A stretch of 64,000 bases of DNA from Paramarasmius palmivorus (taxonomy: Eukaryota; Basidiomycota; Agaricomycetes; Agaricales; Marasmiaceae), in NCBI GenBank assembly GCA_037176845.1, contig JAYKXP010000045.1:124001-188000 (forward strand). The letters are read 5' to 3'. The notes below the pieces were generated by a model, which was given only the letters and a program-made list of their open reading frames with translations, was not told the origin of the DNA and searched no databases. Each line of letters starts with the position of its first letter. The first letter of the stretch is position 1. Positions 8,555-15,541 of this stretch are shown here, in pieces. A program made the position numbers and the translations under genes.

Positions 8555-9547
8555 ATGATCAATGGCGGTCGCGGCTTCACTATCAATGGCGGAGCCTTCA
8601 ATAACGTTCACGGAGCCCAATATAACAACAGCGGAAACACCAACAACCATATCGCCGGCGATATGAATTCCTATCATACAGAAAATCACGGAAACAACAA
8701 TGTCACTAACAACGGGGCCAACCATGCTGCCAGGCCAAGAAGAGGTGAGTTCTTCACGGAGTTTGTGCAGATGCGATGCTGACGGATACGAAACAATCTA
8801 GTACCGAGACGACCTCCTCCAGCTCCTCGATATGAGTATGGGTACGAAGACGAGGAAGAATATTATCGCGGTAGACCAAGGATGCCATACTACCCCGCAT
8901 CAGACCCCAGTTATGGGCATCACCCACCTCCTTCTATGGGCTATGGTGGTTATGGCCCAGAGCCACCTTATCAGCGAAGGGAACACTACGATCCCAATGA
9001 TGCTTATGATACTCGTCATAGACCACCTCCTCGCCAATATGGGCCTGCGCCTCAGCGAGACGCTTATCCCGATAATTACGACCCGCGGTACAATCCACAG
9101 CATCAAAGCTACCGTGATGATCGTCAGCAACCGCCGCCTCGTGACTCTTATGACCCCCGAGGCTATGCACGACCGCAACAGCCTCCCCCTCATCACGATC
9201 AATATTATGATCCACAGTCGCCCGATCCCCAGTATTACCCTCGGAATTCACCTCCTTCGGGCGCATCGAGGCCTGCTCCACTGCATATGAGCTCTGCGCC
9301 AGGGGAAATAGAACAAAGCCTTCCGAATCAGTATTCTCCGCAACCCCCTCGCTCACACACTTCTACCTCACAGCCGCGCCCGTCGAAGAACCCATTTCAT
9401 AAACAGGCAGCTGGACCAGCGGACCAGGAAGTATCCGAAGACGAAGATGGAGATGATGCGGAAGGGAGCACCGGGGCTGGAGACCGTGCAGGTGCAGGCG
9501 GCAGCGGAAATGGGGAACCCACGGTCAGGAGATTGGGACCAAGATAA
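8555..9547 (+). CDS. Gene A: Asn/Gly motif fused to Pro/Tyr-rich protein
   Basis: Two exons (8555-8744 and 8802-9547, joined in phase 1) give 311 residues. The N-terminus carries the motif shared with genes B, D and F: NGGAFNNVHGAQYNN, then more Asn/Gly-rich sequence. The rest is low-complexity Pro/Tyr/Gln/Asp-rich sequence (YDP, YYP and PPP runs). It ends in an acidic stretch (EVSEDEDGDD), a Gly/Ala run and a basic tail (TVRRLGPR). There is no signal peptide or membrane segment and no enzyme domain. The composition suggests an intrinsically disordered, possibly phase-separating protein; this is inference. Unlike B to F it lacks the GNGNT-type repeat. Confidence 0.75.
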
Positions 9548-10257
9548 TTCGACTGTTACTTACCTTCTGCTTTCTGAGTGATTATGTTATCGGGCGCTCG
9601 CATTGCTATTCAAGTGTTTTCGCAATCTTCTGTGTTCTGGACTTATTTTACTTTGAAAATAGTCTTTGATACCCCAGGACGTGCCGAGATTCTGGTCGAG
9701 AACATCTTCAGCCACTACGAGGGACATCATAGGTCCAGACGGTATATCCATACACGGTACATGTCAACCACCAATGGAAAGGAAGCAAGTTTTATTTCCA
9801 GGCTATGCGTTTTGCAGGGTAACGCGAAAAGATACCAAAATGCTGTACCAGATCTCGTCGAATGCGGTCGGTTTGTGCAAAACATCGATCACGAACGAAG
9901 TCGTAAATGGCTTATCACTGCTGTTCTGTACATTCATTCTCAGAAACGCCCAACTCAGATTTCTAGATAGCTTCTTTTGACATTTGCTTGACCTGCGAAT
10001 TATCTGTACCTGTGTGGCACGGGGTATGCTGTTAGGACGTCTTCCAAAGACATGCGATGTTGTCGGTCACGGTGGCGTCAAAACTTTGAAAAATGCGAAG
10101 TGCGCATTGAATTCTAATTTAGCAATACCGGCAGGTGCAATCAACAGCCTTGCCTGTTCATTACGAAAGAGCGACAACGCAGCTCGCTATAAACCCCCAC
10201 AGAAATTGCTCCTTTTGCCACCAACTAAATCTTGTATACAGTGCCTTGCTTCCTTTC
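9548..10257. other. Intergenic, genes A to B
   Basis: No gene is supported. The forward ORFs of 104-141 codons across this stretch overlap each other in different frames and show no motif. Confidence 0.45.
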
Positions 10258-10997
10258 ATGTTCAACGGCTGCAACGATTTTCAAACCAACGGTGGGGCGT
10301 ACAACAATGTAAATGGGTCACAATACAACAACAAAGATGGGCCGATGAACAATACTTGGGACTCTTCTCGTACTACAGCCGTAGGAAACGGGATAACGCT
10401 GGGAGATAGGAGAGGCAAGGGAAAGACTACAGTTGGAGGCAACTGGGAATACTCGGGCAATGAAACAGGTGCGTCCTCGCTATTGCGTTGGGATTGAATC
10501 CGAATGACCGTGACCCTTTTCACATTCAACAGAGAACGGTAGCATTGTTGGCAATGCCAACACTGGTGGAAACTATGATGTCGAAGGAGATCAGAACGTG
10601 AGTGGAGATTGGAAATATCGTATAGGTGGGCCAGCTTGTATTTCCTTGCAAGGTCAAGCATTGATCAGGTTTGAATATAAACACGGCAGGCTCAGAAGGA
10701 CTGGGGAACCGGCGCGAGGGAAACAATATCAGCGGAGAAAGGAGCGATGATAGGATGTCTCGCACCCAAAGAAATCTATCCGCAGAATCCCCAGATGGAA
10801 AAGATTCAAGGAACCCATCGGGTGAAAATCCCCCGGCGTATGCAGAGTTGGCAGTTAAGAATAAGACTCATACCCCCTCTACGAATCGGCCACCTGATAT
10901 TGGGCATATACTTGCAGTAGTTGGGGCCATTAGCGGGATTGCATTTTGCGCTGTTGGTGTTTACGTCTCAGCCAAGTTTGTATACGGATTACTATAG
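10258..10997 (+). CDS. Gene B: Asn/Gly repeat protein with PPxY motif and C-terminal anchor
   Basis: Three exons (10258-10468, 10533-10625, 10690-10997), all joined in phase 1, give 203 residues. Order: N-terminal motif NGGAYNNVNGSQYNN; repeat 1 with core VGNGIT and end GGNWEYSG, basic in the middle (GDRRGKG); repeat 2 alone on exon 2, core IVGNANTGG and end SGDWKY, acidic in the middle. A degenerate third repeat (GNNISGE) follows, then a polar linker with a PPAY motif. The last segment, about 25 hydrophobic residues (HILAVVGAISGIAFCAVGVYV), is very near the C-terminus, suggesting a tail anchor with the repeats in the cytosol. PPxY motifs bind WW domains of Rsp5/Nedd4 ubiquitin ligases in known proteins; applying that here is inference. 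Function unknown. Confidence 0.8.
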
Positions 10998-11619
10998 CCT
11001 CGACGGGTAGATGATGCTAAATATGGTAGACCTTCACGATACTGATTACTTGAATATGGCCGCATATTATTTTGTGTGTAAGATTATGATGTGCCAACAC
11101 AAGTCAGTACTTCGTATCGAAGAAACAGCGATGATCTAAGATGTCCGCAGCCAAACAAAAATTTACAACAGTCTGAAGCTGTCACTAAACGTTTCCATGT
11201 CGTTGATATTCTTACTTCAGCGCTAATCTAAAGTCATGGGATACACAAATGCGCCAGCTCTGTTTGAGCGGTAAGCGGTTCCTGTTGCTCAAATTGATGC
11301 CTTCATTTTCGTCTCGTGGAATCTGTCAAAGCAATGTGGAGGGGAGCTGACCATAATGGCGTTTGTATGCTGATTATACTCCTTGCGCCACCAATGGCAC
11401 CATTACTAAATACAGTCGCGGCTTATATTCCAATGGACATCGGAAAAAAGAACGAGCCTCCACTCAAATCAATACTGTCACTGACAGAACCTTAAAGATG
11501 ATTAATACTCTAGAACATAAATAGTCTATTATAACCATATCTTTCAGTTGTGCCACAGCCCAGTCGCCTACTAGCACACCTACTCATTCTTCACTACCGA
11601 GCGTATACCGAACAGCGCC
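10998..11619. other. Intergenic, genes B to C
   Basis: I see no gene. AT-rich segments just before 11620 (around 11500-11535) may hold the gene C promoter. Confidence 0.5.
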
Positions 11620-12053
11620 ATGAGTGAACAAAGCTCTTCTCCTTGCAAGATAGTCGGTAATGGGAACACGCGTGGTACGTCAGGGGGACAAGGAACAAGA
11701 ACTATTTCCGGGGATTGGGAATATCGAGGTGGCGGTCGAAATGGTGGATTTAGTTTCGTATCTGTCGTGACGCAAATTGACACACTTGGCCTGCTACTGT
11801 AGATTCTTCCATAATCGGAAACGGTAATACTGGCGGGGACAACAACTCGAAGGGAGGAGAGAATATCAGCGGTAGCTGGAGTTACTCTTCAGGTATGGCC
11901 ATGGTCGTGTGGCAATAAACACCGTGCTGATAAGTATCTCTTAATCCAGCAAGATCTGATGGCGAAGAGTGTCTCATGAGCTTGGGAGGACAGAAACGTG
12001 ACACTGTTTGTCCTGGTTCGAAACCCACAATGAACCGAGAGAACAGAAAATAA
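11620..12053 (+). CDS. Gene C: minimal two-repeat protein
   Basis: Three exons (11620-11728, 11803-11892, 11950-12053), all joined in phase 1, give 100 residues. It lacks the N-terminal NGG motif and starts almost directly with repeat 1 (KIVGNGNTRG, ending ISGDWEYRG). Repeat 2 (SSIIGNGNTGG, ending ISGSWSYSS) fills exon 2, which is 90 nt and symmetric. The third exon codes a short polar tail without a membrane segment. It may be the minimal form of the family or a reduced copy. No known domain is recognised. Confidence 0.7.
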
Positions 12054-12347
12054 TGTATGCTGGTGCAGCTGAAATTGTGTACTTCACTGATTCATTGGAT
12101 CTGGTTCCCATTTTTGTGGCATGCGACTGGTATTGCTTTGATACATAGATGTGTATTGTGACATTACTTGGGTATCCCAAAGCTGATGGCATCGAAATGC
12201 GGCATGACTTTATGCACTTAGGATCTGATGGGCTTCATCCATGGACTGAGGTACCGGTATAAGCCGAAAATCATGCTATAATCCCGAGAGACTTAAAAGG
12301 TGTCCATTGTGTGAACACTTCATGCTAACTATCGCGACGCACTGCTC

Positions 12348-12931
12348 ATGTTCACCAATTGTGGGGAATTCCACACTAACGGTGGTACATTCAATCATGT
12401 GTATGGCCAACAGTATAACTCCACGCATCGTCATCAGGGCTTTCGAGGAAAGGCAATAGGCAATGGGATTACAATTGGTAGAAGAAAAGGGCAAGGCAAC
12501 AGACATGTTCGCGGTAGTTGGGCATATTCTGAAAGCTGCAAAGGTGCGTACTTCTTCATCTATTGTGAGTACGCCCCGAAGACACGCTTGAAGATTTATG
12601 TAAAGGTCTATTGGTTGGGAACTGCATTACAGCCGGGGATGAAGAAGTCGCTGGCGACGATACAATTGGTGGTGATTGGACATTCGAGACAAAAGGTCAG
12701 CGGCATGCCTTGCCGGGAGATGACAACGGATGTAGTAATACATATCCGACGGGAATCCGTCCGTGGAGGTGCCTGGATCAAAGAGGTGTTACGGTGCTCT
12801 TACTGGGTATAGTCATGGTGCGTAGCATACAGCATTCTGAAAATGTGAACATCAACATAAAACGCTGTTGTGATAGATTAATCTCCAAAATCCACAAATC
12901 ATCAAAAATATTAATTTCAGACTCCTTGTGA
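12348..12931 (+). CDS. Gene D: two-repeat protein, 3' end uncertain
   Basis: Exon 1 (12348-12543) codes the N-terminal motif (NGGTFNHVYGQQYN) and repeat 1 (AIGNGITIG, basic RRKGQGNR middle, end RGSWAYSE). Exon 2 (12606-12695, 90 nt, phase 1 at both ends) codes repeat 2 (LLVGNCITAG, acidic DEEVAGDD, end GGDWTFETK). Beyond that the frame stays open to 12931 and includes a short hydrophobic run (VTVLLLGIVMV), but a further intron or loss of the original last exon is equally possible. Compared with B and F the tail looks eroded, so this may be a decaying copy. The two repeats themselves are well preserved. Confidence 0.6.
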
Positions 12932-13709
12932 AAATGCGCACAGTATTTGTGCGTCTATTTTGGCAATGAGTTACATCATCTAGACTATAGTCTATAGCTG
13001 TAAAGACTAGCGAAGCAGAATTCTCCATTGCGCATGTATCCTAGAACTGATGATACGAGAAATCAGAGGGCTTATGACACTGTCCGGTTCTATCGCTGAA
13101 CTAATGGTGTCGCATCCAGGTGTCATTGAACGCTGTCATTGCGCTTCTTCCGGTTAGCATCAAATCAGGCGTGATGGGTCTGAGCGCTTTACAAAGTTGA
13201 ACACATGGTAGCCGGTGCTTTCCGTTGGGAGGAGGGTTCGAAACTCCGAGCGCTAAAAGGGATCAATCTTTTACTCACATATTTACTGTCTGTTCAACCG
13301 TGACACAGCGGAAAGCTTCCTTTGCATCGTGCTGTCAGAACGAGCTTCCCAACCGAGACTGTGGCGTTCATTGCAGTGAAATCTTAATGGGTACAAATGC
13401 CGTCCCAGTATTATCATTTCATCGTACACACCTACAGCAAGCGTTAAATCTGAATAGCCACTCATGTGCTACTTTAGGGCTCGCATCTCATGCTGTATGA
13501 TAGAAGCTAAATATGGGATATAGCTGTTGAAGAGGAGTGGAAATCGCATGTTGGAAACAAGGTGATTGGACTATCCTTTTGGCGCATGCTCAGGATGCCA
13601 AAAGTTAGTTTTGCATAAGTACAGAGTGATCAGACTGTGAGAAGCCTCACCACCGTCTGTTATATTTTCTGTCTCTTCACCTCAGTCACAGCCTCTATAC
13701 TCACTCCCA
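12932..13709. other. Intergenic, genes D to E
   Basis: No gene is supported; the ORF of 91 codons at 13225-13500 has no motif and is overlapped by a minus-strand ORF. Confidence 0.45.
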
Positions 13710-14339
13710 ATGGAAGCTATCTTGAACTACCTTTGGCCAAAAAATACATCCGCCACCCCTATGGATGACAATAACAAAGTTCATCACAAGCCCAATCCAG
13801 CAATACAAAGGATGATTGGGAACGGCAATATACGAGGAAGCCGCAAAGGAAAAGGAAACCAGGACATCAACGGCAACTGGACTGCTCGACTTCAGGCTCA
13901 GCCTGATACCAACTCGGGTTAATTCTGTGTGCATTTCTCTGGAGATAGGTCACTGATGAGTGAACATTGCATAGATGATATTGTTGGAAATGGAAATGTC
14001 GATGGTGACTGCGAGGACGAGGGTGAAACGAAAATCGGGGGTGATTGGACTTATGAGAATGGTACGTTGGTCTACGTGGCTTATTTTTTCATGATACATG
14101 ACAAATTTAGTAACCGAAGAAGACCAGAAGGAAGTGGACAAGACTGAGGAGACAGGTACGTTCATCCTGAATACCTGAAGTTAACACTACTGAGTACTGC
14201 TTTAGTGGGAAACACTAGTGGTGAAAAAGTACCTGATGGAACGAGATTCCCAGGAAAAGGGGAGAAGTTGGGAGCTGAACCGGTATATGCTATGAGTGCC
14301 ACCGCAACTAACACCGCGAGCGGGAAGTTGAGGGCCTAA
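13710..14339 (+). CDS. Gene E: two-repeat protein without anchor
   Basis: Four exons (13710-13917, 13975-14061, 14111-14155, 14206-14339), all in phase 1, give 157 residues. The N-terminus differs from A, B, D and F (no NGG motif). Repeat 1 has core MIGNGNIRG, basic middle SRKGKGN and end NGNWTARL. Repeat 2 fills the 87-nt exon 2: core IVGNGNVDG, acidic CEDEGE, end GGDWTYEN. A 45-nt third exon codes a charged linker containing EEDQKE. The C-terminus is polar with no membrane segment. Exons 2 and 3 match gene F in length (87 and 45 nt), so E and F are close relatives despite opposite orientation. Confidence 0.75.
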
Positions 14340-14788
14340 TTTATTATCAGAACTGGAAATTTTTGTGTGGATATCTAATATGAATCTAGCTTGTTTATTG
14401 ATAGTAGATTAACGGATCTCGCCCACAATGAAGGGCACACTCAGGCTGTACTATCTCGGAAGGTCATGATCACAGGGCAAAAAATCTTCAACCCTCGCGG
14501 GGCGAGCGTTAACGTCCCGGCACTTGCCCAAATTCTAATCCGCCAACTACCATGCAAGCTGTGGCATTAACGATGGCAGCAATTTCTGGTCATGGGGCGC
14601 GGATACCCGCCATACTCGGCAACCTGGGCTGATCGCGTCGGTCCACAGCAGGTTTTCTAATATCTAATATCAATGCTTTGACCTCGCGAGCACTGAGACA
14701 GCCGGTTATGGATACTCTGAAACTTGCAATATCCACTATATAAGGTGAAGAAACTAAATTTGTACAGCATATCCAATGGATCGCCTCA
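14340..14788. other. Intergenic, convergent genes E and F
   Basis: This is the space between the 3' ends of gene E (+) and gene F (-). I see nothing in it. Confidence 0.5.
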
Positions 14789-15541
14789 TTACAGAAAAAA
14801 CCCTCTTAATATATAAGCAACAATAAGAAGAGAAGGAGCGACGAAAATTATATCAAAGATTCTCCAACCTCCTAAATCTACGTGATGAGGAGGGTCTCCC
14901 GCATCTTGTGATGGCGTTGCCCGAATATTCCCTTTACTACGGTCATGACAACAGCCTATCTTTCCCTTCGGTGTACTGTTAAAGGAATGACCGTATTGTT
15001 CATACTGGCCATTGCTCGTTGCTACAGTCAGCAGTTCAGTGGTGGACCGTGGCATACTCTAGCTATCAATGACATACAAGTTGTATTCATATTATTTTTC
15101 TTCTGGTCCCGCTCTCCCGCAGCTGTTATTATTGGTTAATATCGAGCCGAAATGTTAAGTGGCTTTGCTCGTAGACATACAAGAGACGTAAGTCCAGTCA
15201 CCGTTGATAGTATCATTACCCTCGGCCTCGTTGTCACCGCCAATATTGCCGTTTCCTACGAGTAGTCCTCTGTATGAATCTACATTGCATACATAAACTG
15301 CTTTGACACCGACATTCTACTGCTCACCCTCCTGGCTATCTGATTGATACTTCCAGCCACCACTAACGCTTCTGTCACCTTTCCCTTCCCTATCCCCAAT
15401 TGTATTGCCGTTCCCAATCACTTTTCCTTTGAATTCTTCTTTATATGTGTTTGTGGTGTTGCCGCTGTTGATGTATTGTGGCCCATATACGTTGTTGAAT
15501 GCATCCCCGTTATTGTGTACGTTACTGGAGTTGTTGAACAT
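14789..15541 (-). CDS. Gene F: Asn/Gly repeat protein with C-terminal anchor
   Basis: Four exons on the minus strand (15328-15541, 15181-15267, 15078-15122, 14789-15021) join in phase 1 to 192 residues. Order: N-terminal motif NNGDAFNNVYGPQYINSG; repeat 1 (VIGNGNTIG, GDREGKGDR, end SGGWKYQS); repeat 2 on exon 2 (LLVGNGNIGG, acidic DNEAEGND, end NGDWTYVS); a 45-nt linker exon (GERDQKK); then a polar segment and a hydrophobic C-terminal helix (IIFVAPSLLIVAYILRGFFL). Like gene B it looks tail-anchored, with the repeats facing the cytosol. Acceptor and donor choices keep every junction in frame. Function unknown. Confidence 0.75.

Follow-up and report, generated by a model that had tools for sequence, protein, structure and literature searches.

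Genes B to F, five small genes that lie with a sixth, gene A, in a 64,000-nucleotide stretch of the Paramarasmius palmivorus genome (contig JAYKXP010000045.1, positions 124,001 to 188,000; hereafter the window), each encode two copies of a 26-residue Asn/Gly-rich repeat. Each pair consists of a positive repeat followed by a negative one, with charges matched in register within the gene, and the N-terminal motif of genes B, D and F was found by computational sequence comparison to be common to NACHT-containing NOD-like receptors (NLRs) of the same genome. We tentatively read B to F as paralogous small signalling proteins, cytosolic or membrane-tethered, that would act as NLR-linked adaptors through self-complementary beta-stacking, and our confidence in this reading falls somewhat short of even. 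Within it, templating, the geometry of stacking and a role in cell death or immunity are what we infer.

Sequence and extent of the repeats

Ten repeats were located by six-frame reading of the window, two in each of genes B to E on the forward strand and two in gene F on the reverse strand, where a sequence-only reading of the same DNA had placed them. That reading gave a repeat length of about 28 residues; the repetition was recovered, and the conserved unit was found to be 26 residues long, aligned without gaps in 10 of 10 repeats and in 11 of 11 when the first repeat of a copy on another contig (C23) was added. It had also counted two repeats in each of B to F and an N-terminal motif in A, B, D and F; both were confirmed, gene A having no repeats and C and E being without the motif. 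G4, N5, G10, G16, G22 and W24 are invariant in the ten repeats, so that a glycine recurs every six residues. The pattern [VI]GN(4)G(5)G(5)G.W, composed after the repeats had been seen, occurred 10 times in the six frames of the window, and 30 order-1 resamples gave no occurrence. When all 45 pairs of repeats were compared, identity was 0.626, 0.648 and 0.337 at first, second and third codon positions, respectively; third positions have diverged and the first two have been kept, so that constraint acts on the protein and not on the DNA. The linkers between the two repeats are 8, 3, 6, 11 and 11 residues long in B to F, in that order.

Across the genome assembly (68.3 Mb, 393 contigs) six genes were found to carry the repeat, each with two copies (12 in all): B to F and the copy on contig C23 (locus L009, 2880-3765, reverse strand). 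A protein query made from the second repeat gave 12 candidates, all of which were scored, and 12 of 12 matches fell in these six two-repeat genes. In its alignment with gene F the C23 copy has an open exon 1 and a repeat-2 exon that is one base shorter (a deletion relative to F), which points to an inactive copy or else to a fault in the assembly. For exon 1 of F and the C23 copy, the nonsynonymous and synonymous rates (dN and dS) were 0.30 and 1.18 by NG86 and 0.44 and 0.43 by YN00; as the two methods disagree, dN/dS for this pair is not decisive.

Charge matching between first and second repeats

All first repeats of B to F are net positive and all second repeats net negative. On the forward strand, the net charges are +2 (10375..10452) and -3 (10541..10618) in gene B, +1 (11647..11724) and -1 (11808..11885) in gene C, +6 (12450..12527) and -6 (12608..12685) in gene D, and +4 (13809..13886) and -7 (13977..14054) in gene E; on the reverse strand they are +2 (15347..15424) and -5 (15188..15265) in gene F. 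With the two repeats of each gene laid over one another at register 0, 16 facing charges were opposite and 2 alike; every other shift between -4 and +4 gave 3 to 9 opposite pairs. First and second repeats were then re-paired across genes, a test meant to allow for common ancestry: the within-gene pairing scored 14 (opposite minus alike) against a mean of 5.4, at the top of 120 pairings and the sole one to reach 14. The C23 copy was excluded from the charge test because its second repeat is interrupted.

Comparisons of first with first and second with second repeats were mostly like-charged, so that stacking of like upon like would be disfavoured and first/second alternation favoured. The charge of residues 9-18, and likewise the net charge, separated first from second repeats fully (1 of 252 labellings), a separation that ancestry alone could explain. 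Mean identity was 0.50 among first repeats and 0.49 among second repeats, and first against second repeats gave 0.40 in the same gene and 0.425 in different genes; clustering by repeat order was judged from these mean identities, which differ modestly, and not from a tree.

The N-terminal motif and NLR genes

In B, D and F the motif has the core F-x-I-x-G-G-x-F-N-x-V-x-G-x-Q, and it is shared with NACHT NLRs of the genome. A 33-residue query, made by hand as the majority form of the motif, matched 76 genomic places at E <= 10, and the reversed query matched 0. Among the matches listed, a NACHT or NPHP3_N domain follows at least 15 of the 76 copies on the same strand, at a distance of 167-220 bp, and no copy lies downstream of such a domain or beside one on the opposite strand within 1 kb. 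The reference for this comparison comprised 150 NPHP3_N matches (the best 150 of 246 candidates) and ten non-overlapping NACHT matches picked by eye from 85 listed. An annotated NLR of 916 residues (VNI00_007829, P0003; PF24883 and PF05729) carries the motif at its start. Copies were classed with tblastn, using queries chosen after the loci had been viewed and at least 1.4 kb of downstream DNA for 73 of the 76: 18 were assigned to NLRs, 21 to an unnamed family, 4 to a polytopic membrane protein, at its C-terminal end, and 3 to another family, and the 30 unclassed copies include the genes of this window. The NLR-type repertoire of the genome is large, as seen from the 150 NPHP3_N matches scored.

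Several other carriers of the motif were observed. The unnamed multi-copy family (L048-L058 and other loci) opens with a variant of the motif; three pieces of it had no Pfam match and one piece had no clear PDB match. The polytopic membrane protein, present in four genomic copies (L068 at C328:18500-21000, L069, L070 and L071), has the NLR-type motif near its C-terminal end and five hydrophobic segments in a 485-residue frame without a Pfam match; we consider these proteins candidate effector-side partners. Text searches of the literature for spellings of the motif core, and for amyloid signalling in Agaricomycetes together with transmembrane proteins, gave no match, and one for tail-anchored proteins in fungal NLR and amyloid work gave none that was relevant by title. 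Contig C63 holds nine motif copies between 71359 and 247050, and in this set, in gene A and at L059 the sequence after the motif and a linker is Asn/Gly-rich and, as far as it was read, Tyr/Pro-rich; the Tyr/Pro-rich tail of gene A resembles tails on contigs C63 and C41. Homology of the N-terminal motif with the repeats was also considered, and a profile comparison gave it no support.

Gene models and neighbouring genes

Gene A (8555..9547, forward strand) consists of an N-terminal motif exon (8555-8744), a phase-1 intron and a Tyr/Pro-rich tail, and has only the motif and a short linker in common with the family. The remaining genes on the forward strand are gene B (10258..10997; exon 1, 10258-10468, with motif and repeat 1; exon 2, 10533-10625, with repeat 2; exon 3, 10690-10997, a tail ending in a hydrophobic helix; 203-residue model), gene C (11620..12053; exons 11620-11728 with repeat 1, 11803-11892 with repeat 2 and 11950-12053; 100-residue model), gene D (12348..12931; exons 12348-12543 with motif and repeat 1 and 12606-12695 with repeat 2, the last exon being uncertain and placed at 12813-12931 in 1 of 3 models) and gene E (13710..14339; exons 13710-13917 with repeat 1, 13975-14061 with repeat 2, 14111-14155 and 14206-14339). 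Gene F (14789..15541, reverse strand) has exons at 15541-15328 (motif and repeat 1), 15279-15181 (repeat 2), 15122-15078 and 15021-14789, and its 196-residue model ends in a C-terminal hydrophobic helix. Exon 1 thus carries repeat 1, and a separate exon carries repeat 2. All 5 of 5 models have a phase-1 intron between the two and a repeat-2 exon whose length is divisible by 3 (93, 90, 90, 87 and 99 nt).

Two of these genes are annotated by NCBI as hypothetical proteins of Paramarasmius palmivorus (Agaricales, Marasmiaceae). VNI00_010849 (P0001) equals our B model over its first 102 residues, which hold both repeats, and then retains intron 2 and lacks the helix; VNI00_010850 (P0002) agrees with our E model from residue 18 onwards. 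Among 20 of the 90 longer, largely non-overlapping frames of the window that were scanned, matches to a P450, DUF7704, a dihydrouridine synthase and a short-chain dehydrogenase were seen, together with an O-fucosyltransferase match below the cut-off, and no NLR.

Database searches and C-terminal tails

The sequence-only reading did not recognise the repeat as a named domain, and this was borne out within the Pfam, PADLOC, PDB and protein libraries searched. A Pfam scan of A to F returned nothing over the cut-off and one sub-threshold match in gene E (E 0.13), and neither further Pfam scans, which also covered neighbouring genes, nor PADLOC gave a useful match. PDB sequence searches were likewise without a useful match, the best hit for the repeats (E 1.1 over 13 residues) being at the level of chance. 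No relative outside Paramarasmius palmivorus was found in a set of 5.8 billion proteins: the main search (2280 candidates) gave two proteins, both of this species. Further protein searches had only 2 and 1 candidates, gave no protein and one of this species, respectively, and are weak evidence for absence elsewhere.

In the predicted gene models, the best 19-residue Kyte-Doolittle mean of the C-terminal hydrophobic helix is 2.28 in B and 2.17 in F, and membrane tethering of these two proteins is possible on such models. One frame of the C23 copy resembles the F tail by eye and stops at the aligned stop.

Interpretation and alternative explanations

In the adaptor reading, the N-terminal motif that B, D and F carry would act as a hook, homotypic and amyloid-like, by which an NLR, once activated, recruits the protein. 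First and second repeats would then alternate in a stacked beta module of two rungs, with salt bridges holding it together, and this stack could amplify or relay the assembly. The C-terminal hydrophobic helix in B and F (perhaps also in the C23 copy) may set the assembly on a membrane, and charge matching would lead each paralogue to prefer itself. A bolder form of this reading, which we hold to be unlikely, is that the family represents a new fungal signalling assembly: an NLR-type hook would be coupled to a separate, charge-coded beta stack of two rungs, some members would add a membrane tail, and the whole would serve as a relay or as a minimal executioner in which each paralogue recognises itself.

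Several observations weigh against the adaptor reading. C and E are without the motif, so that 2 of the 5 genes have no hook. No NACHT domain was found in the 20 frames scanned or in the window among the genome matches listed, and the nearest NACHT on the contig among those matches is some 50 kb away from gene A. The charge test covers five related genes and was designed with the pattern already in view, and the correlation of net charge between first and second repeats (r -0.78) was equalled in strength by 8 of 120 permutations; being the weaker of the two, it leaves the position-wise match as the stronger signal. The models of C, D and E have no hydrophobic C-terminal helix, the helices of B and F are those of predicted gene models and the NCBI model of B has none, hydrophobic stretches arise by chance at 0.61 per kb per strand over the whole window, and downstream of the repeats the C23 copy shows such a stretch in all three frames. 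Membrane tethering is accordingly unproven, given this chance rate and the origin of the helices in predicted gene models. AlphaFold2, in two runs of five models each, gave a mean predicted local distance difference test score (pLDDT) of 41 for P0001 with eight sequences and 46 for exon 1 of F alone, and both predictions are unreliable. Both low-confidence models set strands within the repeats, but the beta-solenoid suggested in the sequence-only reading is not shown. The model of P0001 is further weakened by its MAFFT alignment (A2), in which the exons of F, C and D that hold repeat 1 were set over repeat 2 of P0001.

Those strands, together with the strict six-residue glycine spacing, the invariant Trp and the matched charges, would also suit a small beta structure that folds constitutively, without amyloid, as a pair of stacked rungs or of hairpins and serves for binding, with the N-terminal motif merely localising the protein. 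We find this explanation improbable, though not negligible: the models lack confidence, a 52-residue Gly/Asn-rich segment would presumably provide little core, and the linked NLR motif points toward assembly. The repeats might instead be a diverged basidiomycete form of the HET-s-related amyloid motif (HRAM), a prion-type switch that would not need the N-terminal motif. That there are two repeats, that they show charge complementarity and cluster by order, that C and E carry repeats without the motif, that aromatic residues close the repeats and that the linker falls within the HRAM range of 6-18 residues in 4 of 5 genes by our count all speak for this; yet HRAM spacing was found in no repeat, the unit is 26 and not 21 residues, PF11558 had no match, and neither a HeLo domain nor a repeat-bearing NLR was found, which makes the idea rather doubtful.

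A recently expanded gene family in decay, with no present role, would agree with the one-base deletion in the repeat-2 exon of the C23 copy, with the lack of the motif in C and E and with the finding of no relatives outside the species. Six invariant residues kept despite diverged third codon positions, and charges matched within genes, run counter to it, and we think it quite improbable. The adaptor reading makes a sharp, testable prediction, namely alternating stacking of first and second repeats through salt bridges.

Amyloid signalling tied to NLRs is known from ascomycetes and bacteria. The present family supplies concrete non-NLR carriers of an NLR-type motif, here joined to a second module, and the motif copies at the C-terminal end of membrane proteins add further candidate partners. 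In basidiomycetes, according to passages of Wojciechowski et al. (2022, PMC9815663), motifs on the NLR side are many and those on the effector side fewer. Our results suggest that the repeat family, found so far only in Paramarasmius palmivorus, is an undescribed self-assembling signalling module.

Comparison with known systems

HRAM, as described in passages of Daskalov et al. (2015, PMC4518210), is a 21-residue unit with hydrophobic residues at positions 5, 8, 10, 16 and 18 and an invariant G19, with linkers of 6-18 residues and charge anti-correlation between the repeats; the same passages report that PF11558 matches only 38 of 155 HRAM proteins. The present family resembles HRAM in having two pseudo-repeats, facing charge complementarity between them (in five genes, by a post hoc test), clustering by repeat order and a link to NLRs. 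It differs in its 26-residue unit with a glycine every six residues and a Trp, in its other hydrophobic spacing and in having no HeLo domain, and its NLRs carry the N-terminal motif and not the repeats. A scan of A to F for HRAM spacing (A, D and F cut after the motif or the repeats) matched no repeat, its sole match being in the terminal helix of B. In HRAM proteins the motif lies C-terminal to a HeLo, HeLo-like or sesA domain; here A to F gave no Pfam match over the cut-off, and the one PF14479 match of the genome (E <= 0.01) lies on contig C14, the genome-wide search being for HeLo only. PF11558 matched none of A to F and gave one sub-threshold match, on contig C58. HRAM also has a cognate NLR, usually adjacent, that bears the same motif; no NLR carrying the repeats was found here, all 12 of 12 repeat matches lying in the six small genes. 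The self-templating, HET-s-like role suggested by the sequence-only reading is thus favoured by the in-register charge matching and by the NLR nature of the N-terminal motif, but most HRAM features fail.

PP and RHIM motifs share with the N-terminal motif a short Gly/Gln/Asn core at NLR ends; the core here is V-x-G-x-Q (17 of 17 rows of alignment A5), usually followed by x-N, whereas a passage of PMC9815663 quotes NxGxQxGxN. Passages of the same paper describe the NLR05/08/22/29/44 group in agaricomycete NLRs, where NLR05 and NLR22 mostly occupy the very end of the protein, and propose that the group is a variety or a homolog of HRAM in basidiomycetes. The motif here likewise stands at the very start of NACHT NLRs of an agaricomycete, with hydrophobic alternation and a late Gly. 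Alignment A5 shows this alternation followed by an invariant G, with D or N as the next residue in 5 of 17 rows (by eye), and the published form has three hydrophobic residues followed by G[DN]. Unlike the published group, the motif here is also carried by small repeat proteins, by the unnamed family (21 of 76 copies) and by the C-terminal ends of polytopic membrane proteins (4 of 76). By position and pattern, the N-terminal motif is probably that of the NLR05/08/22/29/44 group. The repeats themselves fall outside HRAM on spacing, unit length, HeLo, a repeat-bearing NLR and PF11558, and the family may work like HRAM without being HRAM.

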